Origin: Capsulimonadaceae bacterium
GTDB taxonomy: Bacteria; Armatimonadota; Armatimonadia; Armatimonadales; Capsulimonadaceae
Direction: 5' to 3'
Assembly (NCBI GenBank): GCA_031292625.1
Contig: JARLGU010000021.1
Span: 44,682-108,681 of the forward strand
DNA: 64,000 bases
In this document: positions 41,571-64,000 of the stretch, one piece after another
Position numbering within the stretch: position 1 is the stretch's first letter
Layout of the letters: each line of letters starts with the position of its first letter
Translations under genes and position numbers: made by a program
Notes under the pieces: generated by a model
Seen by the model: only the letters and a program-made list of their open reading frames with translations
Told to the model about the DNA's origin: nothing
The model's database searches: none

Positions 41571-41615
41571 CGGATCGACACGTGGCCACGGATGGCCTCT
41601 TTTCTAATTGACAGG

Positions 41616-41655
41616 ACCCTCACCCCACCCTCTCCCTTAAGAAAGGGCGAGGGAG
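41616..41655 (+). repeat. Type-B hairpin repeat (CCCTCACCCCACCCTCTCCC...GGGCGAGGGAG)
   Basis: GACCCTCACCCCACCCTCTCCCTTAAGAAAGGGCGAGGGAG; similar copies at 48629, 56011, 58155. Confidence 0.8.
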
Positions 41656-41702
41656 TTAAGATCTACCGCCCATTTAAGGGCGGAGATCAGGAGAGACGCG
41701 CA

Positions 41703-42590
41703 ATGGAACTCTTTGACGAGCCCCCTTCGGGGCCATATATCAGTGACCTGAAGCCGGGGATGCGGCTGGACGGGGCGCTGTTCGCTGTTGTGGATGTCAA
41801 GCCAGTGAACGCAAAGGGTTTTGAGTTTGTCAAGGTAAGGCTCTCCGACTCAAGCGGCAGCGTGGACGGGATAGTTACCCCCTACTCGGATGATAAGGTC
41901 GATCAGCTGCGCGGCGCGGATGTTGTCGCCATATGGGGCGATGTCGACTCTCGCGAGCGTTACGCCGGCCAAGTCAACGTCCGGTCGTTCTCTCCCCAAG
42001 AATTCTACGATGAGACCCGGTTTGTGCAGCCTCTCCCGGCAAATCACGACGCAGTTATTCAGCGTTTCTTTGACGTCGCTGCTACGATTGCCGACGCCCC
42101 ATATCGCACGCTCCTTGACTGCGTCCTAACGCATATGCCGGAGTATTTCACGGCTTGCGCAGCCATGCGAATTCACCATGCCTACCGCGGCGGTCTAGTT
42201 ACTCATTCCACTGAGGTTGCAGAAGTTTGCCTCGCTGCGTCGCAGATTTTTCCCGCTCTCGATCGCTCCCTGCTCATTACCGGAGCGCTGCTGCACGATG
42301 TCGGTAAGGTCCGCGAAATGGAGCACGGATTGCGTCGCGGAAAATACGCGGTTCACGGCGAGCTCGTTGGCCACGTCGTGTCCGGAGCGCTGCTCGTGCG
42401 TGATTTTGCCGGCGCGGCAGGCCTCGCCGATGTGGACGCCGATCGGCTCATGCATTTGATTTTGTCGCATCATGCGCGTCTCGATCAGGGCTCGCCGCGA
42501 GAGCCGAAAACGGCCGAGGCGTGGGTTCTCGCGATGGCTGACTCGATGAGCGCGAATGTCGCGCGATGCGCGACGGAGGGGGCGAAATGA
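41703..42590 (+). CDS. OB-fold + HD-domain protein (YhaM-like 3'-5' exoribonuclease family)
   Basis: VKVRLSDSSGSVDGIVTPYSDD...RIHHAYRGGLVTHSTEVAEVCLAASQ...LLITGALLHDVGKVREME...HHARLDQGSPREPKTAEAWVLAMADSMSANV. Confidence 0.78.
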   Translation: MELFDEPPSGPYISDLKPGMRLDGALFAVVDVKPVNAKGFEFVKVRLSDSSGSVDGIVTPYSDDKVDQLRGADVVAIWGDVDSRERYAGQVNVRSFSPQEFYDETRFVQPLPANHDAVIQRFFDVAATIADAPYRTLLDCVLTHMPEYFTACAAMRIHHAYRGGLVTHSTEVAEVCLAASQIFPALDRSLLITGALLHDVGKVREMEHGLRRGKYAVHGELVGHVVSGALLVRDFAGAAGLADVDADRLMHLILSHHARLDQGSPREPKTAEAWVLAMADSMSANVARCATEGAK

Positions 42591-43099
42591 GCGAGACCTA
42601 CCTTCCCGCCGAAGACGGCAGGCAGCGTCCGGAGACCTACCTTCCCACCGAGGACGGCGGGCCCCTTCCTCCCGCAACGGGAGGAGTTCCAGAGGATCCG
42701 CACCGCGTGACTCTTTCCGTTGATGGGCTGCCGTTTTGGACGGAGGACCTGCTCGAAACAATGCTTCGCGGGAATGTAGAGCCAAAGGCTCCTAGAGCCG
42801 AGAAAGATGTTTCGCGCGAAACGGAGATGTATGCCGCGTTTGATTGGGATCAGCCGGGGCTCCGTGAGGCCGTGTGTATTGGTATTAGTCTCGTTGGAGC
42901 AATTGGCGCAAAGAGGTTCCTTGTCGTACGCTGGCCGTCCTCAAAAGCGTGGCAACCGGTTGTGGAGATCAGTCGAGCTGCTCAGATTAAACAAGATTTC
43001 ATTGATATCGACTGTCGTGGATGCTGGGCATATCTTCGCCGACCGGGACTCGCATTTCCGATTGATGCCGTCCCTCTTGAGCGATTTGGAATTATTTGA
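42587..43099 (+). CDS. Hypothetical phage protein carrying an in-frame type-A repeat near its N-terminus
   Basis: MSETYLPAEDGRQRPETYLPTEDGGPLPPATGGVPEDP...; ATGA overlap with HD gene. Confidence 0.6.
   Translation: MSETYLPAEDGRQRPETYLPTEDGGPLPPATGGVPEDPHRVTLSVDGLPFWTEDLLETMLRGNVEPKAPRAEKDVSRETEMYAAFDWDQPGLREAVCIGISLVGAIGAKRFLVVRWPSSKAWQPVVEISRAAQIKQDFIDIDCRGCWAYLRRPGLAFPIDAVPLERFGII
42593..42686 (+). repeat. Type-A double-hairpin repeat, in-frame within CDS
   Basis: GAGACCTACCTTCCC...GGCGGGCCCCTTCCTCCCGCAACGGGAGGAG. Confidence 0.85.
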
Positions 43100-43112
43100 T
43101 AGGAGGTTCGCG

Positions 43113-43523
43113 ATGGCAACTTCTTTACAGATTAACGGGCTCCCGCCGAGCTTGGCGGATCGCGGGGCTGCCGATTGGCCCGCGATCGCTGAATGGTACG
43201 GGTTGCCGGCGCAGGTAATCGAAGGACTGGCCACGTCGCCGAATGAGGCTGATCGGCGCTGCTATCGTTGGCTCCGCGAGGATTGGGAGCGGGCGATGAA
43301 GGGCGGCGATGTGGATAACGTCCCTACCCGTTTGGCGTACTACGAGGATGCGATTGGGCGTGAGGAGGCCACGCGCCGTCGAGCGCGGATTGAGTTTGTC
43401 GCGCGGGTCGTCAAGCGCGTCATGCGTCCGCGCCATGTCGTGATTGCGCAGGACTCGATCATCTTTTTCGTGTTCCTCGGGATCGTGGCACTGATGTTGT
43501 ATGTGCTCGGGGCGCTCCCGTAG
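43113..43523 (+). CDS. Hypothetical phage protein with C-terminal TM segment
   Basis: MATSLQINGLPPSLADRG...; IFFVFLGIVALMLYVLGAL; AGGAGGT RBS. Confidence 0.55.
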   Translation: MATSLQINGLPPSLADRGAADWPAIAEWYGLPAQVIEGLATSPNEADRRCYRWLREDWERAMKGGDVDNVPTRLAYYEDAIGREEATRRRARIEFVARVVKRVMRPRHVVIAQDSIIFFVFLGIVALMLYVLGALP

Positions 43524-43590
43524 GACCTACTTTCCCGCAGGAGAAACCTACCTTCCCCTTCGGGGCCCCTTCCTCCCGAAACGGGAGGAG
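43523..43590 (+). repeat. Type-A repeat, upstream of 43605 ORF
   Basis: ACCTACTTTCCC...ACCTACCTTCCCCTTCGGGGCCCCTTCCTCCCGAAACGGGAGGAG. Confidence 0.85.
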
Positions 43591-43604
43591 TTTGGGAGGC
43601 GCAG

Positions 43605-44150
43605 ATGGTTACCGGATGCTGTGATTTTGATGCGCGGATGCTGGCGGATACGTTCGAGAATTCGGTCTATTACGACCGGCTGCTACGGCGTCCGGAGGGG
43701 GATGTCAAGCCGTGGGAGCGGGTCGAGATCGACGCGATTGCTTCGCAGATCGCCTTTCTCGCGGCGCGGTATCCCTGTTACGATTATCACGAAATGCCGT
43801 ATATTGCGCCGACGCCCGGGGATGCGTCGCGAGAGTATCGCGCGATCGACGCTGCACTGCGGGATCCGGCCAGGGCGGCGCGTTCGTCGCGTAAACGTCG
43901 TATGATATTGCGGCTCAAAATGGGGATCAGAACGGGGCGATCGCCGATGACATGGGTCGAGCTCGCGCAGTGGGCGAACCTGGTCGATGTAAACGGCGTC
44001 CCGGTCGCCGAGCGTGCAAAGGGGGCGTGGCGTGTCGCGCTACTCGATCTCGGATTGCTCGATCAGCTGTACGTCCCGAAAGCGCAGGAGCTCTCGTTTG
44101 ACATGGATGCGCCTAAGCGCGCCGCTGCCGGCGCAGGTCATGGGGGATAG
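43605..44150 (+). CDS. Hypothetical phage protein
   Basis: 181 aa ORF, co-directional, repeat-derived/RBS-like GGGAGG upstream. Confidence 0.5.
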   Translation: MVTGCCDFDARMLADTFENSVYYDRLLRRPEGDVKPWERVEIDAIASQIAFLAARYPCYDYHEMPYIAPTPGDASREYRAIDAALRDPARAARSSRKRRMILRLKMGIRTGRSPMTWVELAQWANLVDVNGVPVAERAKGAWRVALLDLGLLDQLYVPKAQELSFDMDAPKRAAAGAGHGG

Positions 44151-44216
44151 GCCTGCCTTCCGGCCGAAGAGACCTACCTTCCCCTTCGGGGCCCCTTCCT
44201 CCCGCGCCGGGAGGAG
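44150..44216 (+). repeat. Type-A repeat, upstream of 44232 ORF
   Basis: GAGACCTACCTTCCCCTTCGGGGCCCCTTCCTCCCGCGCCGGGAGGAG. Confidence 0.85.
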
Positions 44217-44231
44217 TTAGATATAAACAAC

Positions 44232-44564
44232 ATGGCAGGAGTTTCAGACATGGTGGTCGAGAAGGATCCGTCGATTGCGATTAGTATGGGGCCGCGGATT
44301 GTCGACTGGGTTGCCGCGCGAATTACGGCCGTGAGCGTCTATTCGTCTCCCCGTCGCCGTGGACCTGGCGTCATTTGGTCCGCGGAGGTAGTCGACCGGC
44401 AGGGGCGGCTCCTGGATGCGCGTCTGGTCGCCAGCGGGCTATCGATCGAAGGCGCTTGCCAATGGCTTGCGTATTCCGCGCGGCAGGTGCTCGATGAGGA
44501 GCAATTCGAGCGCGTGTGCGATTTGATCGAGGACGCGAAGGCGCGCGGGAAGCGTTTCGCATGA
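44232..44564 (+). CDS. Hypothetical phage protein
   Basis: MAGVSDMVVEKDPSIAISMGPRIVDWVAARITAVSVYSSPRRRGPGVIWSAEVVD. Confidence 0.5.
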   Translation: MAGVSDMVVEKDPSIAISMGPRIVDWVAARITAVSVYSSPRRRGPGVIWSAEVVDRQGRLLDARLVASGLSIEGACQWLAYSARQVLDEEQFERVCDLIEDAKARGKRFA

Positions 44565-44584
44565 CCTACACTCCGGGCGATGGG

Positions 44585-44644
44585 GAACCTAACCCTCCCA
44601 CTTCGTGGGTCCCTCCCTTCCCTAAGAAGGAAGGGGAAAAGGAG
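44585..44644 (+). repeat. Variant type-A-like repeat
   Basis: AACCTAACCCTCCCACTTCGTGGGTCCCTCCCTTCCCTAAGAAGGAAGGGGAAAAGGAG. Confidence 0.6.
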
Positions 44645-44650
44645 CAAGTT

Positions 44651-44974
44651 ATGGCTGAGAATATTGTTTGTCCGAAATGCGGAGGCAAGGGCTATAGCCT
44701 GGGATTTGCCTGCGGGCCGTCCGTTCACTGCGATCAGCGGCGGATAACTTGCTTCTATTGCCATGGATCGGGCGCGATCGATGCCGAGACGAAAGCGCGG
44801 ATCGATGCCGGAACGAGGTTGCGCGAAGAAAGGCTTTCGCGCAGATTGGGCTTGCGCGAGGAAGCGCACCGTCGCGGAATGGATCCCCGCGAGCTCATGG
44901 CGATCGAGTTGGGGCACGCGTTTTACGATGGGTGTCCGGTTCGCGCCATTAAAGATTTGCCGATTGGCGGCTGA
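44651..44974 (+). CDS. Zinc-ribbon-like small phage protein
   Basis: CPKCGGKGYSLGFACG......RITCFYCHGSG; alternative start 44561 would translate the repeat. Confidence 0.55.
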   Translation: MAENIVCPKCGGKGYSLGFACGPSVHCDQRRITCFYCHGSGAIDAETKARIDAGTRLREERLSRRLGLREEAHRRGMDPRELMAIELGHAFYDGCPVRAIKDLPIGG

Positions 44975-45170
44975 GGCTTATGGCCTCGGGCCGCAAGCGC
45001 GAGCAGGATGGTAAGTGACGCCTGTTTGTGCGCAGCGGGCTAGGAGAGCTCGGAGGGGTACGTTTCCTCTTGAGCCCTCCAGCCCCCTTGTCTTCATCGC
45101 GGGCTCGCATGGGCTCGATTGTCAATCCCGGCGCGGCAACGCAGTCGCCGGATGAGTTTGAGGTAATTGT

Positions 45171-47978
45171 ATGGCTGCCCCTTTGTTCGAGAATATCCCC
45201 GATGAGCTGAAGATCCATCCTCGTTGGACGCCCTGGGCCTACAAGGATACTGACCCCGGCGAAGAGCCCAAAAAATTGCCTCTTAACGCTAATGGACGCG
45301 GGGGGGCGAAAATTAACCATCCCGAGACACTGGTCGATTACCCCCGCGCCGTGGAGGCCTTCGAGAACTCGCAGTCTTGGACTCGGGGGCCTGGTTACGA
45401 CGGTCTGATGTTCGCGATCGTCGAAGGCGACGGGTTCGCGGGTTTGGATATCGACGACTGCATCGATCCTGACACGGGCATTATCGAGCAGTGGGCGCTT
45501 GAGATCGTCGAACAGCTGAATAGCTACACGGAGATTTCGCCATCCGGAACCGGCGTTAAGATCTTCATGATTGCGTCTAAACCGGGCGCTCGGTGCTGCA
45601 AAAAACCGCACTTCGAGTTCTACGATCGTTCGCGGTTCTTCACGGTGACCGGCAATCGTTTCCCGGGCTCTCCTTCGACGGTCGAAAAGCGCCAGGCCGA
45701 GTGTGAAGCCGTCTATAACCTTCTGTTCCCGCCAGAGCCCCCTCGCCCCGTGGCCGTCATGCCCGACAAGATGGTCGATCTGAGCGACTCTGCCCTTCTT
45801 GCGCGCGCGTTGGGTCCCTGGAAGAATAGCGCGAAGTTTAATCAGCTCTGGTTTGGCGATTACTCGATGTATTCGCACGCGAAAGACCCGAAGAGCAAGA
45901 AGGGATATCGCGAGCCCTACGACCATTCCGCCGGCGATCTAGGCCTCTGCAACTTGCTCGCATTCTGGTGTGGACCTCAAGGTCATGCGCAGGTCGATCG
46001 GCTTTTCCGGCAATCCGGTATGATGCGCGCTAAATGGGATCGGCATGCTCGTGCGCAGGACGCAACATATGGGGCCGGCACGGTTCGATTGGCTGTAGAT
46101 GGCTGCAGCACGTTTTGGGATCCGCGGTATCGCTCCGGCATTTCGCCGCGTTCCCGCGCCCTTACTTTAGGGGATCGTGGGGATGATGCCCAACATCCCG
46201 CTTTCGAGGGGGAAGGGGCGCGCGGCGAAATGCCGGACGGCGGTCGTTCGGATAAACCGGAGACCCTCCTCCCCGCGAGCGGGTCCCCTCCTCCCGATCA
46301 GGGAGGAATTGAAAGGTATCCGGCTGCGCCGGATGATCCGGATCGCGAAGCGTCGCTTCTCGATGAAGCTGCGTGGGGACCGAGGAACGATCTTCCACGA
46401 ATTGAGACGTATAACGTCCATCTGCGCGAGCGCGCCGGTGAGACGTTTAGATATATGGTTGCAGCCAATGATCCTCCCGAGGTCTTTCGCAGGGGGTCTT
46501 GCCTTGCTCGGATCGAAGTTGACGCCGCTGAGACGATCTCGATTAAAGATCTGAATGTTCCCACATTGCGGAATCGTTTGACGCATGTCGTGGCTTTTAT
46601 CTCGACATCCGAAAAACGCGGATCTATCGCCGTCAAGGCGCCCGTCGATATTATGGAAGACATTATGGCGTGGGGTAAATGGCCTGAAGTGCCAATCGTT
46701 GAAGGCGTCACGCGCACGCCAATTTTTGACCAGAGTGGTACGCTGCTGGATACGCCGGGATACCATCCTTCTGCGCGCATTTATTATCTGCCTGAGCCCG
46801 GTCTCGAAATCGGGGACACGACACCTTCGCCAGAGTCAGTCGCCGCGGCCAGGTCGCTGATTGAGGAAGAGATTTTCGTTAATTTCCCTTTTGCGGATCA
46901 GGCGTCCAAGGCGCATGCCATGGCTTTGGTTTTATTACCTTTTCTACGGCCGCTCATTTCAGGCCCCACGCCCCTCCACTTGATCGACGCGCCCCAGGCC
47001 GGGACGGGCAAATCACTCTTGGCGCAGGCGTGTATCTCCGTCTTTACGGGAATGCTGCCCGGCGCGGTCATCCCTCCCACGACGGAGGAAGAGTGGCAAA
47101 AGACCTTGACCGGCGTATTTAAGGCGGGGGGCTCTCACTTCTTTCTTGATAATGCGCGGATGCTTAACTCGATCTCGCTTTTCGCGGCGCTCACGACGGG
47201 GTATTGGGAAGGCCGTCTTTTGAACATGAATGAGATGGGGCGGTATCCGATCGTTTGCACGTTCGTGGCCACGGCTAATAATGTCGCTGCAGGGCCGGAG
47301 CTCCTCCGTCGATCGATCTCTATTCGCCTCGACTCCGGCGTGGAACGGCCGGAGGAACGGTCTGGCTGGAAGCATGATCCGCTCCTTTCATGGATCCGTG
47401 AAAACCGAAGCGAATTTGTTACCGCAGCTATCACGCTTGCCCGCGCGTGGGTTGACGGGGGCAGGCCGAAATATACGGGCGCAATGCGTCCTCTCGGCTC
47501 GTTTGAGGGCTGGTTTCATACAATGGGCGGCGTTCTTGACGTGATAGGAATGCAGGGTTTTTTGGAAAATCGCGAGGCGTTTAGGGATCGCGCCGAAAAT
47601 GAGGACGCTCCCTGGTACGTATTTGTCGAAAAATGGGCGGAATTATTCTCCAACAGGGTAGTCGGTGCGGCCGAATTGTTCGAGTTGGCGACCGAATATC
47701 TTGGTCCCGATGCGGATGGCGCGACCGAAACCGCGAAGAAAGCCAAATTCGGCAAGCGGTTAGCGTCGCATACTGACAGGATTTACGGCGCGTATCGCAT
47801 TGTATACAAGGGCAAATCTACATCCGGCGCAAACAAAGGCGCGAAACTATTTGCGCTTTCGCCTACCGATTACAATAATCCCATGCCCTCCCTCGGGAAT
47901 ACGGATCCGACAATTTCGGGCGAAACTACGTCTAAATTAGCGACACAAGGAGCGTTCGACGAAGAGTTAGGCGTCTAG
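45171..47978 (+). CDS. Phage primase/helicase (prim-pol-like N-terminus + AAA/D5-like ATPase)
   Basis: ENIPDELKIHPRWTPWAYKDTDPGEEPKKLPLNANGR...GLMFAIVEGDGFAGLDIDDCI...; IDAPQAGTGKSLLAQA Walker A; FFLDNARML. Confidence 0.82.
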   Translation: MAAPLFENIPDELKIHPRWTPWAYKDTDPGEEPKKLPLNANGRGGAKINHPETLVDYPRAVEAFENSQSWTRGPGYDGLMFAIVEGDGFAGLDIDDCIDPDTGIIEQWALEIVEQLNSYTEISPSGTGVKIFMIASKPGARCCKKPHFEFYDRSRFFTVTGNRFPGSPSTVEKRQAECEAVYNLLFPPEPPRPVAVMPDKMVDLSDSALLARALGPWKNSAKFNQLWFGDYSMYSHAKDPKSKKGYREPYDHSAGDLGLCNLLAFWCGPQGHAQVDRLFRQSGMMRAKWDRHARAQDATYGAGTVRLAVDGCSTFWDPRYRSGISPRSRALTLGDRGDDAQHPAFEGEGARGEMPDGGRSDKPETLLPASGSPPPDQGGIERYPAAPDDPDREASLLDEAAWGPRNDLPRIETYNVHLRERAGETFRYMVAANDPPEVFRRGSCLARIEVDAAETISIKDLNVPTLRNRLTHVVAFISTSEKRGSIAVKAPVDIMEDIMAWGKWPEVPIVEGVTRTPIFDQSGTLLDTPGYHPSARIYYLPEPGLEIGDTTPSPESVAAARSLIEEEIFVNFPFADQASKAHAMALVLLPFLRPLISGPTPLHLIDAPQAGTGKSLLAQACISVFTGMLPGAVIPPTTEEEWQKTLTGVFKAGGSHFFLDNARMLNSISLFAALTTGYWEGRLLNMNEMGRYPIVCTFVATANNVAAGPELLRRSISIRLDSGVERPEERSGWKHDPLLSWIRENRSEFVTAAITLARAWVDGGRPKYTGAMRPLGSFEGWFHTMGGVLDVIGMQGFLENREAFRDRAENEDAPWYVFVEKWAELFSNRVVGAAELFELATEYLGPDADGATETAKKAKFGKRLASHTDRIYGAYRIVYKGKSTSGANKGAKLFALSPTDYNNPMPSLGNTDPTISGETTSKLATQGAFDEELGV
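46258..46309 (+). repeat. Type-A-like repeat in-frame between primase and ATPase domains
   Basis: GGAGACCCTCCTCCCCGCGAGCGGGTCCCCTCCTCCCGATCAGGGAGGAATT encodes PETLLPASGSPPPDQGGI. Confidence 0.75.
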
Positions 47979-48048
47979 CCCCGGCCCTCCTTCGCATGTT
48001 CAGGGGACGTTCGCGCCGTTCGGGGCCGTTTGCTAGCGCTTCTATGAA

Positions 48049-48500
48049 ACTTATCTTTTCTCTCGCGTTATAAAAAATAAGAATAAGAAAGATAAGTATA
48101 CGTATTGGGCCAGAGAACGCCCCCTAACGTCCTGACCGTCCCCTACAGGCTTTTGACCACAAATATTGTCTGCTTGAAAAGTTCGCGGTTGTTCGGCGTC
48201 TTTGGTTAGTTTTTTTGCGCGGGCGTAGGGGTGGCGCCGATTGCGGCGGCCGCTGAACGATTGGTTGCTTCGTCCGCGATTTCCGGGGCGGCGGAATGGT
48301 TGCAATTGGACCGGTTTCGGGATTGCGAATGGACCGGTTTTGGTGTTTTTGACGCATCGCGATAATGATGGTTATTGAGAGTTATTAACATGCTGATTTT
48401 GGATGAATTTGACATAATCGAAAATATTTCGAGCAACAACGGCAGTAAGTAGCCCATTATGTCAACAATTATCAGATTTTCCTTGTCATAACAAACATTA
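48049..48500. promoter_or_regulatory. AT-rich intergenic region with several inverted repeats (candidate origin / ParB or operator region)
   Basis: ACTTATCTTT 48049-48058 / AAAGATAAGT 48088-48097; TTGACATAAT 48409-48418 / ATTATGTCAA 48456-48465; CGAAA-ATA-TTTCG. Confidence 0.4.
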
Positions 48501-48584
48501 TCGGAACATGGTCTCTTTGGGAATGCGCGGTTTTCGGCGGTAGTTGACGATTGTTTGGTTGAGTTTACGGAGGAGGTAAACATC

Positions 48585-50894
48585 ATGGCAGGACGAAAGA
48601 GCAAGAGCGCGGTGATTGAGACGGAGGAGGGACCCTCACCCCAGCCCTCTCCCATAGGAATGGGCGAGGGAGTTGCGGAAATGGCCGTAAAGGCGTCCGT
48701 GGGGCCGTCCATGGCGCGTTTGGCGGATGGGCCGTCTGTTGCGACGGCGGCGGACGGACGGCCGCTTGCGGAGGGCGATGATCGAACGTTTGGCGGATGG
48801 GCGCAGGGATCGGCCGAGCAAGAGATCCCAGTTGTTCGGATCCATGCGAGTTCGTTCAACCCGAGGAAGGCATTTGACGAGGCCAAGACCGTTAGCCTGG
48901 CAGCTTCTATGGGTAAGCACGGGCTTTTGTCGCCGATCATCCTTCGGCCATCGGAAGAAGCAGAAGGGGATTTTGAGATCGTCGCCGGAGAGCGGCGGTT
49001 TCGCGCGGCGTTGACGCTTGGATGGAATGCGATCCGGGCGATTGTCCGTGAGGCGGGAGACCTGGCGGCGGAGGAGATCGCCATTATTGAGAACGTGATG
49101 CGTGAGAACCTGAACGCGGTCGAAGAGGCGGAAGCGTATCGCCGGCTTCGTGAGATCCATGGGCTTAAGGTCGAAGAGATCGCCGAGCGGGTTGGGCGTT
49201 CGCGGAGCGCGGTGTCGAACGCGATGCGGCTGCCGGAGGGCGTCCGGGCGCTGGTCGCATCCGGGGAGCTGTCTGAGGCGCATGGACGGGCGATCGTGCG
49301 CTGGGCGCCATTCGAGCCGATCATGAGTGAGCTTGCTCGGATCGTAATCGATGACAAGCTATCGTCTAAAAGCATTGAAGGCGAGTTGAATAGTCAACTT
49401 ACGCACGCGCTCGAACAAGGAGGCGCTATTCGCAGTTTGGACGGTTATCACAGAGATTTCGATACGAATATCTGCCGCGAATGTCCGTTTGACGCGATGC
49501 GCAATCTTCGGGAGCCGACAGATTGGAGCGCGAACCGGTATTGTCTGCGGCCGGATCACTTCGCCGAGCTCGTGGCTATGAAGCAAAACGAGGAGCGCAT
49601 CAAAGCCGAGGAGCAAGCCGCTAAGCACGGGGAAAGCGCCGCCAAGCAGATCGAGAAGAAGCGAGCGTCGGTTGACAAAGCAGTTACGGCCGTTCACGCG
49701 GCGAACACCGCGCCAGAGCGTAAGGCTGCCGAGCGCGAGCTCGCGGCCGCAATGAAGGCGATCGAACTCGTAGCTCCTGGCGTATGCGGCGAAGACGGCG
49801 CTCCCATTCCTGCGGAAGCGATCGGAAAAGACTCGGATGCAGCGTCGCCCGCGCTGCCGGACATCCACGGCATGAAGCAAGGATCTTATATCGACATTTG
49901 GAGTGAAGGCCAGCGACCGAAGGGTTGCTCTCCGAACTGCCCATGCAACGTCAAGGCGCGCGCCGCGGGCCAGGTGCGGACGATCTGTTGCGATCCCGGC
50001 AGGTGGCGTTCGCTCTCCTCTATGGCTAAGCGAGAGGCGACGAAGAGGCGCAAGGAGGCGATCGAGAAAAACTTGGCGCGCGCATCCAAAGTGGTTTGGA
50101 TGAGCGGCTATTCCGAGATGGCCAGCCGGCGCGTCATTGCCATGCTTGTCGCTCGGCTTGTTAGCAGTGTGGGGCTCGATACGCGCCGTGCCGCCTTGGA
50201 AGCGCTCGTGATGGAGCGGCCAAAGATCGAAATAGGCGCATTAAGCCCGCTCGATACCGCTAAGGACATCTATCGAGATGCCGATGCGGAGTGCTTCCGG
50301 AAGGCCTTCATGACACTCCCGCCCGATACGGCGCTTGCATATGCCGCTGAGTGTCTCGTGGCTGTCGAGATCCGGAATGCCGGAGACAGCAAGGATATGC
50401 GAACGCCGCTGATGGATTGGTTGATCGGGAGGCTGCTGGAAAGCGGCGAGAGCGCGGAGGCGGTGGTTTCGCGCGGAACGGGCGCCGGGTCAGATCAGGA
50501 GCCGGAGACCTACGTTGCCGCCGCAGACGCTAGACCGGAGACCTACCTTCCCACAAGCGGGCCCCTTCCTCCCGAAACGGGAGGAGACCCGGAGGGAGAG
50601 GATGCCGACGACGACAGTATGGACGCGGACGGCCTTAGCGATGGCGGGTTGGAGGCGAGGGAGTGGATTGAATGTCACGGGGTACCCGGGAGTTACCACG
50701 GCGATCTGCGCGTAGGGGACCGTGTATTGTTCGATGAACCGATGCTTCCTGAGGGGGATAGGATCGGCGTCTTGATTTGTGTTGGATCGCCGGAGAGCAT
50801 CGTGAAGTTTGACACGACCGGGAACAGCGCGTCTTGGCCGAATGAGCGATTGAGCAAGGTTGCAGAGTCTGCAGGGGTGGGGGAAGCGAAATGA
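48585..50894 (+). CDS. ParB-like nuclease-domain/HTH protein
   Basis: IPVVRIHASSFNPRKAFDEAKTVSLAASMGKHGLLSPIILRPSEEAEGDFEIVAGERRFRAALTLGW...EAYRRLREIHGLKVEEIAERVGRSRSAVSNAMRL. Confidence 0.88.
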   Translation: MAGRKSKSAVIETEEGPSPQPSPIGMGEGVAEMAVKASVGPSMARLADGPSVATAADGRPLAEGDDRTFGGWAQGSAEQEIPVVRIHASSFNPRKAFDEAKTVSLAASMGKHGLLSPIILRPSEEAEGDFEIVAGERRFRAALTLGWNAIRAIVREAGDLAAEEIAIIENVMRENLNAVEEAEAYRRLREIHGLKVEEIAERVGRSRSAVSNAMRLPEGVRALVASGELSEAHGRAIVRWAPFEPIMSELARIVIDDKLSSKSIEGELNSQLTHALEQGGAIRSLDGYHRDFDTNICRECPFDAMRNLREPTDWSANRYCLRPDHFAELVAMKQNEERIKAEEQAAKHGESAAKQIEKKRASVDKAVTAVHAANTAPERKAAERELAAAMKAIELVAPGVCGEDGAPIPAEAIGKDSDAASPALPDIHGMKQGSYIDIWSEGQRPKGCSPNCPCNVKARAAGQVRTICCDPGRWRSLSSMAKREATKRRKEAIEKNLARASKVVWMSGYSEMASRRVIAMLVARLVSSVGLDTRRAALEALVMERPKIEIGALSPLDTAKDIYRDADAECFRKAFMTLPPDTALAYAAECLVAVEIRNAGDSKDMRTPLMDWLIGRLLESGESAEAVVSRGTGAGSDQEPETYVAAADARPETYLPTSGPLPPETGGDPEGEDADDDSMDADGLSDGGLEAREWIECHGVPGSYHGDLRVGDRVLFDEPMLPEGDRIGVLICVGSPESIVKFDTTGNSASWPNERLSKVAESAGVGEAK
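48629..48674 (+). repeat. Type-B repeat in-frame in the ParB-like CDS
   Basis: GGGACCCTCACCCCAGCCCTCTCCCATAGGAATGGGCGAGGGAG encodes ..GPSPQPSPIGMGEG.. Confidence 0.8.
50502..50586 (+). repeat. Type-A repeat in-frame in the ParB-like CDS
   Basis: GGAGACCTACGTTGCC...GGAGACCTACCTTCCCACAAGCGGGCCCCTTCCTCCCGAAACGGGAGGAG encodes PETYV...PETYLPTSGPLPPETGG. Confidence 0.85.
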
Positions 50895-53419: not shown

Positions 53420-54064
53420 ATGGAATCTTTAAGCGAGGGGAATTCCTTTAAGTGGGATTCTCGAAAAGAGCGGGCGGCCGCGTTGAAGGCAGCGGGGCGA
53501 ACGACGTCCGAGATCGCGCATGATTTGGAACTCTCCGCAAGATGTATTCAGAAGTGGGCTTCGCATAAGAAATTCACTGACCGCGTTTCCGAATATGTTC
53601 GGATGTACCGTCGTGAGATCAAGGATTTCTCGATCGCCTCGCTAACCGATCGTGTGGATGCCAAAGATCGTCGCTGGAAGGCGCTGCAGCAGATTATCGA
53701 TTCGCGCGCGGAGGCGTTCGCAGAGATCGAAGAGACGGGCGGCGCGAGCATCCCGGGCCGCGTTAAGATCGAGCCGGGCATGGGTACCGGGCTCATGAAC
53801 AAGGCTGTCACGGTTGTCTCGACGAAGGACGGCGACCGCGTGACTACTGAGTTCAGGCCGGATCTCGGGATTGTGTCCGCGATGACCGCGCTTGAAGAGA
53901 GTGCCGCGAAAGAGCTGGGGCAGCTGCCGTCGCGGATGGAGCTGACCGGTAAGGGCGGCGGCCCCGTGCGCGTCATGGACGAACCGGACTTGTCCGGTCT
54001 CACGGAAGCGGAGCTCGCGCAGCTGGAAGCGCTGCTTGTGAAGGGGAGCGGAGAGAGCGAATAG
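53420..54064 (+). CDS. Terminase small-subunit-like protein
   Basis: N-terminal HTH (ALKAAGRTTSEIAHDLELSARCIQKWASHKKF), acidic C-terminus, position upstream of TerL. Confidence 0.6.
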   Translation: MESLSEGNSFKWDSRKERAAALKAAGRTTSEIAHDLELSARCIQKWASHKKFTDRVSEYVRMYRREIKDFSIASLTDRVDAKDRRWKALQQIIDSRAEAFAEIEETGGASIPGRVKIEPGMGTGLMNKAVTVVSTKDGDRVTTEFRPDLGIVSAMTALEESAAKELGQLPSRMELTGKGGGPVRVMDEPDLSGLTEAELAQLEALLVKGSGESE

Positions 54065-54066
54065 CC

Positions 54067-54384
54067 CGAAACGCGTGGGCCCCTTCCTGCGCAGAGACCT
54101 ACCTTCCCTGCGCAGAGACCCACCTTCCCTGCGAAGAGACCTACCTTCCCTGCGAAGAGACCTACCTTCCCGCAAGCGGGCCCCTTCCTCCCGAAACGGG
54201 AGGAGTTCAGAAAGACCTACCTTCCCACTTCCCCTTCGAGGGGCACTCCCGGCCGGAGACCTACCTTCCCGCCGAGGAGATCTACCTTCCCACTTCGTGG
54301 GTCCCTTCCTCCCTAAATGGGAGGAGTCTCGGAAAGACCTACCTTCCCACTTCGTGGGCCCCTTCCTCCCTGAACGGGAGGAGC
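54067..54384 (+). repeat. Cluster of type-A repeats including 21-bp tandem half-units
   Basis: Four near-tandem GCAGAGACCTACCTTCCCTGC-like units, then multiple full ACCTACCTTCCC...CCTCCCGAAACGGGAGGAG copies. Confidence 0.9.
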
Positions 54385-54480
54385 TCAGATGTCCGCGAGT
54401 AAGTTTCGCGGGCGATGCCCTCATGGCCGGGATAAACTCCTCGATCCCGCTGTGGGGGCTAATTTTTTGAAGGTGCGCAT

Positions 54481-55998
54481 ATGGGACTTATTCCGTCGCT
54501 TAGGGCAGTCCGCGCTGAAACGTGCCGGAGGCATTTGAGGGACTTTGTCCGCTGGAGCTGGGATGTCCTTGAGCCGGAAACGCCACTGCAGTGGAACTGG
54601 CATATAGATGCCATTTGCGACCACAAGGAAGCGCAATTTTTTGACTGGCTGGCCATTCGCAAGGCGCTGAAGAAGGGCGAAACGCCTCCTCCGATGCGGA
54701 TGCAGAACCTGGTCATGAATGTGCCGCCCGGGTCGACCAAGTCCCGTATCATGATGGTCGACTATCCCGCGTGGGTATGGCTGCATGCTCCCACGTGGCA
54801 CGGGATCTGTGTATCGAGCGCAAAGCTGGCCACGCGCGACTCGCTGCTTACGCGTCGATTGATCGAGAGTGATTGGTACCAGGAGTGGTTCCAGCCGGAA
54901 TGGGGCTTTACCGCCGATCAGAACGCGAAGCTGAACTTTATCAACACGCTCGGGGGGCAGCGGGAGGCGATCACGCCGGGGGCGTCGATCGTCGGCAACC
55001 GCGGCGATGAGCTGCTGATGGATGATCTCAACGATCCCGACGACGAAAACGAGTCGGCGAAGCGCGAGCAGATCAATGACTGGTGGGACATGGGGGCCGG
55101 AAACCGGCTTAACGACCTGCGGTATAGCATGCGCTCGATGATCCAGCAGCGGATGCACCACGAGGATGCAACCGGCCACTTCACCCAATCCATGGAGTGG
55201 GTGAAGGTCGTCATCCCGATGGAGTTTGAGCCGTCGCGGGCAACGAAGACCCCGATTGGTTGGATTGATCCGCGTATGATCTCTGGGGAGCTGATGTTCC
55301 CTGCCCGATTTCCCGCAAGCGTGATCGAGCAGGAGAAAAAACGGCTTGGGACGTACGGCTACCAGGGGCAATATCAGCAGGAGCCGTCCCCGCCGGGAGG
55401 GTCGATTTTCAAGGAGAGCTGGTTCGGCTCATACAAGTCGCTTCCCGCGATGAAGGAAGTTTGGACCGCGTGGGATACCGCGCTTAAGACCAAGGAAGAG
55501 AATGACGAGAGCGCGCTTGTAACGATCGGGCTTGGCGAAGACGGCAATCTGTACGTGCTGCGGATGTGGCATGGCCGCGAGGAGACGCCCGATATTGCGA
55601 GACGGCTCATTCAGCACGCGGGACACCTAAGACAGCTTTATGGCGACCGGTATCGGGGCGATTACATAGAGGACGCGCCTGGCGGTACTGCGCTCATGCA
55701 GTATTTGCGGCGCACGAGCTCGGCGCTGGCGGTGATCCCGATCCGGGCGGCGACCGACAAGGTTTCGCGGGCTCATGTGGTTTCGCCAATTTGCGAGGCG
55801 GGACGCGTGCTCCTGCCGGACCCCTGGGCATATGCGAAGGTGAGTGGGTGGCGCAGGGATTTACTTGCGAACCTGACGTCCTTTCCGAAAGCCTCCCACG
55901 ATGATATTACCGACGCCTTCGTGTATGCTGTCAAGCGATTTATGAGTTCGATGGGCACTGGCAAGAGCCGTCGCGGGACGGCTGGCGGGTGGGTGTAG
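54481..55998 (+). CDS. terL: Phage terminase large subunit
   Basis: NVPPGSTKSRIMMVDYPAWVWLH, RGDELLMDDLNDPDDENES, AWDTALKTKEENDESALVTIG, HDDITDAFVYAVKRF. Confidence 0.93.
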   Translation: MGLIPSLRAVRAETCRRHLRDFVRWSWDVLEPETPLQWNWHIDAICDHKEAQFFDWLAIRKALKKGETPPPMRMQNLVMNVPPGSTKSRIMMVDYPAWVWLHAPTWHGICVSSAKLATRDSLLTRRLIESDWYQEWFQPEWGFTADQNAKLNFINTLGGQREAITPGASIVGNRGDELLMDDLNDPDDENESAKREQINDWWDMGAGNRLNDLRYSMRSMIQQRMHHEDATGHFTQSMEWVKVVIPMEFEPSRATKTPIGWIDPRMISGELMFPARFPASVIEQEKKRLGTYGYQGQYQQEPSPPGGSIFKESWFGSYKSLPAMKEVWTAWDTALKTKEENDESALVTIGLGEDGNLYVLRMWHGREETPDIARRLIQHAGHLRQLYGDRYRGDYIEDAPGGTALMQYLRRTSSALAVIPIRAATDKVSRAHVVSPICEAGRVLLPDPWAYAKVSGWRRDLLANLTSFPKASHDDITDAFVYAVKRFMSSMGTGKSRRGTAGGWV

Positions 55999-56010
55999 AG
56001 GCGCGAGAAA

Positions 56011-56235
56011 GAGCCCTCACCCCACCCTCTCCCGCAAAGCCGGGCGAGGGAGCCGGAGCCTATCTTCCTCCCGCTGAAGAGACCTACCTTCCCGTGCAGA
56101 GACCTACCTTCCCACTTCGTGGGCCCCTTCCTCCCGCAACGGGAGGAGTTTGGGAGAACCTACCTTCCCACTGAAGACGGCAGGCCCCTTCCTCCCGCGC
56201 CCTTCGAGAACATCAGAGTCTCCGAGCGGGAGGAG
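56011..56235 (+). repeat. Type-B plus several type-A repeats; the last copy has a 27-nt insertion in its hairpin loop
   Basis: CCCTCACCCCACCCTCTCCC..GGGCGAGGGAG; ...CCTCCCGC[GCCCTTCGAGAACATCAGAGTCTCCGA]GCGGGAGGAG. Confidence 0.85.
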
Positions 56236-56486
56236 TTCCAGATTTACGGTTTGCGGAGGGCTACGGGATCGCGCAAAGGTTTACAGCCACGGGTTACGGC
56301 CTAGATAAAGCGCCGCCGCGTATATTGCCGAAAGGCCCATGTACAACGCCGCGTCTTGGCTTCCTTTCATGGGGATCCCGTCCCTTCGCAATATATTTGT
56401 GTGGGTGTCATCGGTTCGAGGCTCGCTCAGGCCGCGCATTTAAGAACGTTCGTAGAACGTTTACATCTTTCCATCAGGTTCAGTCA

Positions 56487-58016: not shown

Positions 58017-58060
58017 GCCCTTGAGGCCGGTAGGAACCGCTCGCCGCGAGGGGGCCGAGG

Positions 58061-58110
58061 GAGACCTACCTTCCCACTTCGTGGGCCCCTTCCTCCCGCA
58101 ACGGGAGGAG
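58061..58110 (+). repeat. Type-A repeat
   Basis: GAGACCTACCTTCCCACTTCGTGGGCCCCTTCCTCCCGCAACGGGAGGAG (reference-like copy). Confidence 0.9.
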
Positions 58111-58154
58111 ATCGTGAAGGAATAGAGTATGGCGAGTGCGGGTGACCAAGGATA

Positions 58155-58197
58155 GAGACCGTCGCCCCACCCTCTCTCATAAGAATGGGCGAGGGAG
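58155..58197 (+). repeat. Type-B repeat
   Basis: GAGACCGTCGCCCCACCCTCTCTCATAAGAATGGGCGAGGGAG. Confidence 0.8.
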
Positions 58198-58508: not shown

Positions 58509-58608
58509 ACAACGCATACCTTCCCAGTTCATATTCGACCACTTCGACAGGCTCAGGGGTCCCGGATGGGCTCACGGTCCCGAGGGAGGCCGAGGAAGCG
58601 GGCACGCA

Positions 58609-58658
58609 GAGACCTACCTTTCGACTTCGTGGGCCCCTTCCTCCCGCAACGGGAGGAG
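58609..58658 (+). repeat. Type-A repeat
   Basis: GAGACCTACCTTTCGACTTCGTGGGCCCCTTCCTCCCGCAACGGGAGGAG. Confidence 0.88.
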
Positions 58659-58701
58659 TCTCGGGATCTTCGGATGGGAGGAGATAGTGAAGGAATAGGG
58701 T

Positions 58702-60207
58702 ATGGCGAATGCGGAGGAATTTGCGGCGATTGTCAGGGCGGCGCGTTCTGCTCAGGTTCGGCTGGATGCTAAGACAATCAGGGATGTGGACGGCCTCTTG
58801 GCTGCGGCGGCCGCGCAAATCAGCGCCGATATCCGGAGCGTTCCGCGCGGAACGTTAAGCGACCGTTACCGCCGGGAAATTGTCAAGGAATTGAATGGGA
58901 CGCTCGATACCCTGCGTATAAGCTATAAGGCCACACTTGATGGAGGGATCGATAAGGCGGCGAAGATCGCGGTCGAACGGGAACAAGGCATTCTCTCCGC
59001 GCTTAAGACCAACTGGCGGGAACTCGCGCCGGGGCACGCTGCGTCGCTTTTTGGGTCGGCCGATAAGATTGGCGTCGAGTTCGCGCGCGTCCCGGCTCAA
59101 GTGCTTGATCGCCTCTATGCTCGCACGTATAGCGACGGTCTGACGCTCTCGAAGCGCCTCTACAATATGGACCGCGCAGCGCGGAAGGCGGTTGCAGGCG
59201 AGATTTACAAGGCGATCGCGACGGGCGCGAGCGCACGCAAAACGGCAAAGGCGATCGAACCGCTCTTGACGGCGGCGGGATCCGAGAACGTGCGCTATAA
59301 TGCGCTACGGATCGCTCGGACGGAGATCGGCACGGCGTTTCGCGAGGGGCACATTGCGACGGCGACGGACGGGCAGGGGAAGCTCCATCCGTGGCTACGC
59401 GCGATCGGCTGGAGGCTCAGTGCCAGCCATCCGCGACGCGATATTTGTGATGCTTGGGCTGGCGATGACTACGGCCTGGGCGCAGGGAACTACCCGGATG
59501 CCGGGAGCTTGCCGCCGGGGCATCCGCACTGCATGTGCTATTCGGTTAGTTTGATAGCGGGCGTGGATGCGGAGTTCACCGGTTACGCTCCTGAGCCGGA
59601 TGCGTGCCCGGCGTCGCAGATCAAATATTATGGGCAGGATCAGGAACGGACATCCACGAGCCGTGCGGTCCGTCAGCTGCGGGGAGAGGAATTAGCGAAC
59701 CCTTCGCCTAAAGAAGCTCATGTGCTTCCTGAACATCTCGCCAAGCAGATCCCTGATGAAATACGCTCCGGGCTTGTCAAGCCGCATCCCGATGTGGAAG
59801 TCTACGAGCAATCCGGGTATAAGGAGGATAGCCGTGAGCGCACGATTGCCGCGCGCGTTGCGGAGTCCGGATCAACTGTCATTCTGCGCAGGAAAGACGA
59901 AACGCCCAATGAGACGAGTTTCGACGCTTTCATGGAAATCGATGGGCGTATGGAGCCGGTCGAGTTTAAGCGGATTACCGAAGCGGCCGTTAATTTGGCT
60001 GGGGTCGCCGATGCTCAGTTGCGAAGCGCAAAGAAGCAAGCCCAGAACGTCTTGATTTATGTGGACCGGGCCGACTATAATAACCAGCTGCAGGACATTG
60101 AAGCGGGCCTCAGTCTCCGGTTAGCGAGGACCAAACGAGATGGCACGGCAATAAAGCGTGTGCTATTGGTCACGCCGGACGGGGTCATAAGAGAGATAGC
60201 GCCATGA
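58702..60207 (+). CDS. MuF-type minor head protein with candidate C-terminal nuclease toxin domain
   Basis: MuF core: LRIARTEIGTAFREGHIATA...ASHPRRDICDAWAGDDYG...LPPGHPHCMCYSV; C-terminus ETSFDAFMEIDGRMEPVEFKRITEAAVNLAGVADAQLRSAKKQAQNVLIYVDR resembles CdiA_C-type tRNase. Confidence 0.72.
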   Translation: MANAEEFAAIVRAARSAQVRLDAKTIRDVDGLLAAAAAQISADIRSVPRGTLSDRYRREIVKELNGTLDTLRISYKATLDGGIDKAAKIAVEREQGILSALKTNWRELAPGHAASLFGSADKIGVEFARVPAQVLDRLYARTYSDGLTLSKRLYNMDRAARKAVAGEIYKAIATGASARKTAKAIEPLLTAAGSENVRYNALRIARTEIGTAFREGHIATATDGQGKLHPWLRAIGWRLSASHPRRDICDAWAGDDYGLGAGNYPDAGSLPPGHPHCMCYSVSLIAGVDAEFTGYAPEPDACPASQIKYYGQDQERTSTSRAVRQLRGEELANPSPKEAHVLPEHLAKQIPDEIRSGLVKPHPDVEVYEQSGYKEDSRERTIAARVAESGSTVILRRKDETPNETSFDAFMEIDGRMEPVEFKRITEAAVNLAGVADAQLRSAKKQAQNVLIYVDRADYNNQLQDIEAGLSLRLARTKRDGTAIKRVLLVTPDGVIREIAP

Positions 60208-61238: not shown

Positions 61239-61326
61239 AAGACCTACCTTCCCGCAAGCGGGGTCACGAGGCCTTAGGAGACCTACCTTCCCGCAAGCGG
61301 GCCCCTTCCTCCCGAAACGGGAGGAG
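61239..61326 (+). repeat. Type-A repeats between scaffold and capsid genes
   Basis: GACCTACCTTCCCGCAAGCGGG.. and GAGACCTACCTTCCCGCAAGCGGGCCCCTTCCTCCCGAAACGGGAGGAG. Confidence 0.9.
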
Positions 61327-61388
61327 TTCAGAGTGTTCGGCGCGAGGAGCCAAGAACGAAATCTCTCGGATCGAAAGGATCAAAATAA

Positions 61389-62395: not shown

Positions 62396-62642
62396 GCCGC
62401 CCCACCCTTATTGCCATTCGAGAGCCTCATAATCTTCGACGGGCGAGGGAAACCTACCTTCCCGCAAGCGGGCACCTTCCTCCCGAAACGGGAGGAGCTC
62501 AGAAGGCCTACCTTCCCGCTTCCCATTCGAGGGGCCTCAGTATCCTGTGCAGAGACCTACCTTCCCCCTTCGTGGGGATCACGAGGCCTTAAGAGACCTA
62601 CCTTCCCACTTCATGGGCCCCTTCCTCCCGCAACGGGAGGAG
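62396..62642 (+). repeat. Mosaic of type-B (with loop insertion) and type-A repeats
   Basis: GCCCCACCCT[TATTGCCATTCGAGAGCCTCATAATCTTCGA]CGGGCGAGGGA; then several ACCTACCTTCCC...GGGAGGAG copies. Confidence 0.85.
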
Positions 62643-62660
62643 ATAGGAGAGACATATTTT

Positions 62661-63704: not shown

Positions 63705-63732
63705 TTAGCGTTTCGCGCGAAACGTGAGACGG

Positions 63733-63858
63733 GCTACCTACCGAAGCCTACCTTCCCCTTCCCGTGCAGGAGACCCACATTCCCACTTCCCATTCGACGG
63801 GATCAGGGTCACTTATGGAGACCTACCTTCCCACTTCGTGGGCCCCTTCCTCCCTAAG
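63733..63858 (+). repeat. Type-A repeat cluster, last copy truncated at the IS-like end
   Basis: ...GAGACCTACCTTCCCACTTCGTGGGCCCCTTCCTCCCTAAG| then TGTGTCAGG. Confidence 0.85.
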
Positions 63859-64000
63859 TGTGTCAGGAATCGGGTTAAACTAGACCACATGGAATCGGCA
63901 TGAGTAGACCGGGGTGAATCGGCATATGTAGGCCACCCGGAATCGGCATGTCTAGACCAGGTGGAATCGGCATATCTAGACCACTTTGAGTATCGCGATG
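63859..64000. mobile_element. Likely IS21-family element end with ~5 imperfect 24-25-bp direct repeats (rest outside window)
   Basis: TGTGTCAGGAATCGGGTTAAACTAGACCACAT / GGAATCGGCATGAGTAGACCGGGGT / GAATCGGCATATGTAGGCCACCC / GGAATCGGCATGTCTAGACCAGGT / GGAATCGGCATATCTAGACCACTTT. Confidence 0.65.

Follow-up and report, generated by a model that had tools for sequence, protein, structure and literature searches.

How does the same short DNA sequence come to be read in one frame inside unrelated phage proteins? The question is raised by a 64,000-nucleotide stretch of a Capsulimonadaceae bacterium (hereafter the window), which runs from base 44682 to the final base (108681) of contig C48 in a draft genome of 5.77 Mb, and in which an original prediction, made from sequence alone, had noted two repeats (types A and B) translated within three phage open reading frames (ORFs). 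We found that type A belongs to a repeat family of the host genome, is mostly intergenic, recurs in a second, unrelated prophage and is strictly co-oriented with the phage genes, none of which that prediction had noted. A host repeat resembling repetitive extragenic palindromic (REP) sequences and bacterial interspersed mosaic elements (BIMEs) has probably spread into, and been amplified in, two unrelated prophages, where copies inside genes are tolerated in frame. The window appears, from gene layout and a few domain matches, to be host chromosome from its start to about 39-41 kb, with phage genes from about 41.6 kb onward, and C8:1-8762, which carries an endolysin and an integrase, is probably the opposite end of this prophage. 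Contigs C17 (reverse) and C31 abut at an identical repeat and contain the second prophage, which has a Mu-like gpT capsid and is unrelated to the first. The joins of C48 to C8 and of C17 to C31 are ones that we infer.

Architecture and distribution of the type-A repeat

Type A comprises two hairpins in about 50 nt, with the layout ACCTACCTTCCC-[hairpin 1]-GGGCCCCTTCCTCCCG-NNN-CGGGAGGAG; hairpin 1 has length variants of 11, 12, 13, 16 and 18 nt, and pairing holds in nearly all. In an alignment of 29 two-hairpin copies (A1), we identified compensatory changes in both stems (13 GC, 10 AU and 4 CG pairs in stem 1, and a C-G to U-A change in stem 2), and paired cells made up 95.8%, vs. 41-58% after sliding. 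The units are modular, with partial modules, exchangeable hairpin modules and, at window positions 54091-54170, 21-nt tandem units. One unit, CTTCGACAGGCTCAG, stands alone in the prophage (window 58538-58560) and is also nested within hairpin 2 of chromosomal type-A copies (L108-L113). Of the 29 aligned copies, 26 carry the motif C[TC]AC at the 5' base of hairpin 1 (CTAC in 20/21 prophage rows, and CTAC or CCAC in 6/8 host rows); the motif is the complement of the GT[AG]G REP tag, on the opposite side compared to canonical REPs. CGTC was absent from both ends of the A1 consensus, and window 41500-64000 yielded no Rfam match.

The hairpin-2 core CCTTCCTCCCGNNNCGGGAGGAG, with up to 3 mismatches allowed, matched the window 15 times (0.04 expected), and CTACCTTCCC matched it 24 times, in every case on the + strand (0.05 expected). 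Genome-wide, the strict core (≤2 mismatches) was identified in 35 places, of which 21 were in the prophage contigs (~52 kb) and 14 elsewhere. Covariance model R1 yielded 28 prophage and roughly 45 chromosomal matches at E ≤ 0.001, and a stricter genome-wide scan yielded 68 matches at the same threshold; R1 was built chiefly from prophage copies and is therefore biased toward them. Type-A density in the two prophages is roughly 60-150 times that in the chromosome. About 17 of the 21 full prophage copies are intergenic, vs. ~3 expected by chance given a regional coding fraction of 0.85 (p ~ 3 × 10−11 for at most 4 of 21 copies inside genes under random placement). Chromosomal copies are also mainly intergenic, and many of them are arranged as inverted pairs (L108-L114; about 140-180 bp), in which the partner is a sister unit with the same architecture and different stems.

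Diverged relatives of type A were found in five genomes of the same bacterial family and order (G001, G002, G004, G006 and G010), again as inverted pairs, for example in G002, whereas the strict pattern was found neither in 150 relatives nor in IMG/VR viral contigs. This distribution marks type A as a lineage-specific, REP/BIME-like repeat family of the host. Its copies are as similar between the two phages (0.91) as within one phage (0.88).

The orientation of the repeat relative to genes differs sharply between prophages and chromosome. All 26 informative prophage copies are co-oriented with the genes (the remaining two of the 28 matches lie at module edges), compared to 10 of the 23 chromosomal matches between same-direction genes (Fisher p = 4.4 × 10−6, with genes called by a simple hexamer ORF caller, short of full annotation, and with the inverted pairs non-independent). 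The spacing to start codons is variable, from 7 to over 250 nt.

Type-A copies read within genes

The peptides that the original prediction had assigned to the 42587 ORF, the primase/helicase and the ParB-like protein are all encoded where it placed them, and the consensus is, as it had stated, free of stop codons in every + frame. At the N-terminus of ORF 42587-43099, a partial module (42590-42628) and a full copy (42629-42690), spanning 42590-42690 on the + strand, are read in the frame ETYLP..PLPPATGG. The ATG at 42587 overlaps the preceding stop (ATGA) downstream of the ribosome site GGAGGGGG, and translation through the repeat is likely, although a later start codon might be used instead. 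In the primase/helicase ORF (45171-47978), a diverged full copy (46256-46312, +, 53.9 bits) reads PETLLPASGSPPPDQGG and corresponds to residues 363-379, in the linker between the helix-bundle domain (HBD, 252-318) and the helicase (from about 421). The predicted read-through is well supported, with domains on both sides, and residues 300-409 were all modelled by AlphaFold as coil (predicted local distance difference test score, pLDDT, of about 30). In the ParB-like ORF, a partial module (50502-50534) and a full copy (50535-50590, 74.8 bits), spanning 50502-50590 on the + strand, read PETYVAAADARPETYLPTSGPLPPETGG and supply residues 640-667 (counted from ATG 48585), directly after the last conserved C-terminal helix and modelled as coil. 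Here too the predicted read-through is well supported, the ORF continuing to a stop codon that shares the sequence ATGA with the start of the following gene. Near the N-terminus of the same protein, a type-B copy (48627-48674, +) reads GPSPQPSPIGMGEG and is probably translated, because it is downstream of ATG 48585 with its strong ribosome site GGAGGAGGT. A fourth in-frame type-A copy (L052:1919-1980) was identified in the C31 prophage, where it reads LPETYLPAGDGGPLPPATGGAPE within a 657-aa ORF, a putative structural gene; the repeat comes after the region that aligned, at E 0.015 and short of Pfam's threshold, to positions 8-80 of the 127-position F5/8C domain profile.

The in-gene copies are thus located at a protein start, in linkers or in a loop, which bears out the expected placement at termini or linkers and adds loops to it. 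The structure prediction that had been proposed as a check returned coil at the primase and ParB repeats, but the mean confidence of the models was low (54 and 52, respectively), so that it backs the linker placement only weakly. All four in-gene copies are read in the ETYLP...PLPPxTGG frame (chance 1/27 if the frames are equally likely, or 1/9 for the three window copies alone), and all four belong to the length class that keeps both repeat ends in one frame, vs. 5 of the 17 intergenic copies (p = 0.021). The frame rule held for these phage copies and failed in a host gene of G001, whose Pro/Ser-rich linker contains an in-frame, diverged inverted pair that is read differently (EPTPAQAPSLPKREG); the rule is therefore not general, and we regard it as weakly supported. 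A congeneric homologue of this G001 gene (79% identical) lacks the pair and has a different, shorter sequence at the repeat site.

Comparison with homologous proteins shows that the repeat-encoded peptides are not shared. A covariance-model search of 77 viral loci with genes for relatives of the primase or ParB found no repeat (a single match at E 0.09), and the ETYLP/PLPPxTGG motif was not found in the homologous proteins and loci scanned. Two ParB homologues (L129 and L130) align through the last conserved helix, and both are without the repeat segment. The anchor-to-anchor length of the primase linker is 155 residues in the window, vs. 82-103 in six homologues and 150 in two others with an unrelated insert; the linker is variable, and the 17 repeat-encoded residues account for part of the extra length. 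Homologues encoding the same segments without the DNA repeat, which would have marked the peptides as ancestral, were thus not encountered.

Other repeat copies and neighbouring sequences

The phage genes checked past ~41.6 kb are all on the + strand, and their products include an HD protein, an NrS-1-like primase/helicase, the ParB-like protein, SSB, HNH, terminase, portal, head morphogenesis, scaffold and SU10-like capsid proteins. The other repeat copies are likewise on the + strand. Full type-A copies at 43539-43594 and 44165-44220 are intergenic and precede ORFs 43605 and 44232, respectively, and a diverged copy (44582-44640, 42.6 bits) lies early in ORF 44516-44974, probably before the real start codon. 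An array of type-A modules with three full copies and the 21-nt tandem units (54061-54389) separates ORFs 53420-54064 and 54481-55998. The terminase-portal interval contains a type-B repeat followed by type-A copies (56007-56245), a full type-A copy and a type-B copy lie downstream of the portal ORF (58058-58197), and another full copy (58606-58662) lies upstream of ORF 58702. Further copies occur in the scaffold-capsid interval (partial and full, 61240-61330), downstream of the capsid ORF (two full copies and partial modules, 62446-62646, the second adjoining the likely ATG of the next gene) and at the contig end (modules at 63748-63873, including a diverged copy at 63815-63873).

Type-B repeats were identified at window positions 41610-41655, 48627-48672, 56007-56052 and 58152-58197, the first of them on the + strand near the first ATG of the HD-domain ORF 41592-42590, whose true start could be downstream. 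Two of the three strict genome-wide type-B matches are in the window prophage, and type B may be prophage-rich too. A suspected third repeat at 44340 (SSPRRRGPG) was rejected, as its palindrome does not recur. The palindrome TTTCGCGCGAAA, present at 42810-42821 and 63711-63722, resembles parS, the ParB-binding site, and the same phage encodes the ParB-like protein. A gene-start region, ribosome site and start codon included, is present in two copies (58103-58141 and 58676-58714; 92% over 39 nt). Four tandem 24-nt units (TAGACCANNNGGAATCGGCAT...) occupy 63881-64000 at the contig end and have no relation to type A.

Origin of the prophage copies

Under the reading that we favour, a host-lineage repeat with exchangeable hairpin modules would have entered two unrelated prophages and then amplified there, with insertions and local duplications tolerated chiefly between genes. 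Surviving in-gene copies would be those that keep the frame and lie in loops, at protein termini or between domains, where they add some 17-30 Pro/Gly-rich, probably disordered residues. We infer that insertion brought the copies in, and that the in-gene pattern reflects selection and not targeting. The proposal that spread of the repeat generates disordered linkers agrees with the location of the copies at linkers and termini, but a benefit from such linkers would be a further step, and selection against harmful insertions fits equally well. The co-orientation would most likely stem from one-strand insertion at the replication fork or from amplification of an already co-oriented phage copy.

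Several observations weigh against this reading. A plain selfish-repeat account leaves the strict co-orientation in the phages unexplained, since the copies in the host have no such bias. We found no transposase whose ends are of type A, and the sole Y1 transposase of the genome (C45:3907-4251) has other palindromes at its ends. Finally, a clean empty site was found for none of the four phage insertions, because, among the matches listed from IMG/VR and phage records, even the best for terminase, capsid and primase are below 45% identity; the clean indels relative to related phages that the original prediction had anticipated were not seen, as there is no close homologue and the differences in the primase linker go beyond the 17 repeat residues.

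The co-orientation with transcription in both prophages, together with conserved hairpins with compensatory changes, could instead indicate that the phage copies are transcript-level elements at gene borders (hairpins with a free GGAGGAG end), similar to the start-associated sequences or stoperators of mycobacteriophages, with the in-gene copies as by-products. GGGAGGAG adjoins several gene starts, and Cluster K mycobacteriophages provide a precedent in their one-way, start-linked repeats, the start-associated sequences and extended start-associated sequences (ESAS) (PMC3203893). However, the distance to the start codon is not fixed, for which reason we rejected a start-associated-sequence reading; copies and arrays are also found far from starts, the host carries the element in both orientations, and its sharing by unrelated phages points to the host genome and away from phage regulation. 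We consider such a role unlikely. A bolder version, in which two unrelated prophages co-opted the repeat as a one-way, genome-wide transcript element and reusable linker donor, the single frame being kept since the acidic/neutral ETYLP...PLPPxTGG linker is favoured over what the two more basic frames encode, seems to us decidedly doubtful. Alternatively, type A could be a GTAG-type REP moved by a Y1 enzyme (TnpA-REP, or REP-associated tyrosine transposase, RAYT), with insertion into the lagging-strand template setting its orientation relative to replication. The C[TC]AC foot and the presence of one Y1 transposase in the genome fit this possibility, and both lagging-strand targeting and in-frame REPs inside tnpA-REP genes have precedent (PMC6006769), but the tag is on the hairpin side opposite to canonical REPs, the palindromes around the Y1 gene belong to a different family, and host copies have no orientation preference relative to genes, which makes this route rather unlikely. 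A link of type A to this transposase via its ends was rejected, as the flanking palindromes are of another family and the nearest type-A copy is 1.8 kb off. Finally, the common frame of the in-gene copies might suggest peptides that are ancestral and repeat-like by coincidence, or a repeat derived from coding sequence; given the same two-hairpin DNA at many intergenic places and in four unrelated proteins, and the lack of the peptide in homologues, this is extremely improbable.

The Y1 (HuH) transposase gene itself (L062) lies within a comM-like (Mg-chelatase family) gene with a duplicated 3' segment. Its flanking palindromes resemble a second two-hairpin family with several copies in the second prophage (L051 10, 3679 and 3869; L052 132).

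The parallel with Rickettsia palindromic elements, which insert in frame at unusual frequency (PMC10969869; also PMC3733652), was well chosen in that both are dispersed palindromes that unrelated genes can carry in frame without being destroyed (four copies here). The two differ in sequence, host and length (about 150 bp vs. ~50 nt), in the fraction within ORFs (nearly half vs. about 4 of the 21 full prophage copies) and in the CGTC tag at one end, which type A lacks; unlike the Rickettsia elements, type A is concentrated in prophages, mostly intergenic and one-way. Many intragenic REPs are in replication or repair genes, and a linker location has been suggested for them (PMC3733652). Type A shares with these GTAG/CGTC REPs the short stem-loops, chromosomal inverted pairs and occasional in-frame copies, several in DNA synthesis or repair genes, and differs in its two-hairpin unit, opposite-side tag and strong prophage enrichment; moreover, the RAYT gene is flanked by the GTAG REP, whereas type A does not flank the sole Y1_Tnp gene (C45:3907). 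Among phages, the 17-bp repeats dispersed in Cluster O genomes, about a third of whose sites are intragenic (PMC4351075), and the Cluster K sequences are, like type A, short repeats with many copies per genome. The latter are one-way, as type A is in prophages, but are 3-7 bp from the start codon, and, compared to both, type A is a covarying double hairpin that occurs in two unrelated phages and also in the chromosome of their host.

Between genes, the palindromic units of type A form inverted pairs and mosaics, as those of BIMEs do, and we presume a similar resemblance to Rhizobium intergenic mosaic elements (RIMEs), which are intergenic mosaics of exchangeable palindromic modules. The sequence family of type A was not matched to BIMEs or RIMEs, and a prophage enrichment of either was not met in the literature examined. 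In the open-licence literature we found no description of prophages that had accumulated palindromic repeats of their host in a single orientation, most subscription papers being outside the search. In-frame palindromic repeats are known in kind, and the one-way concentration in prophages is the unusual part.

Taken together, in-frame palindromic repeats, documented mainly in Rickettsia and as intragenic REPs of some other bacteria, are found here in core phage genes (primase and ParB-like) and in a gene with a putative structural role; the two prophages concerned are unrelated and share one host, and the repeats in them follow an orientation rule that is absent from the chromosome. These findings raise the questions of whether replicating phage DNA is a preferred target for the spread of host repeats, and whether repeat invasion may lengthen linkers in phage proteins.

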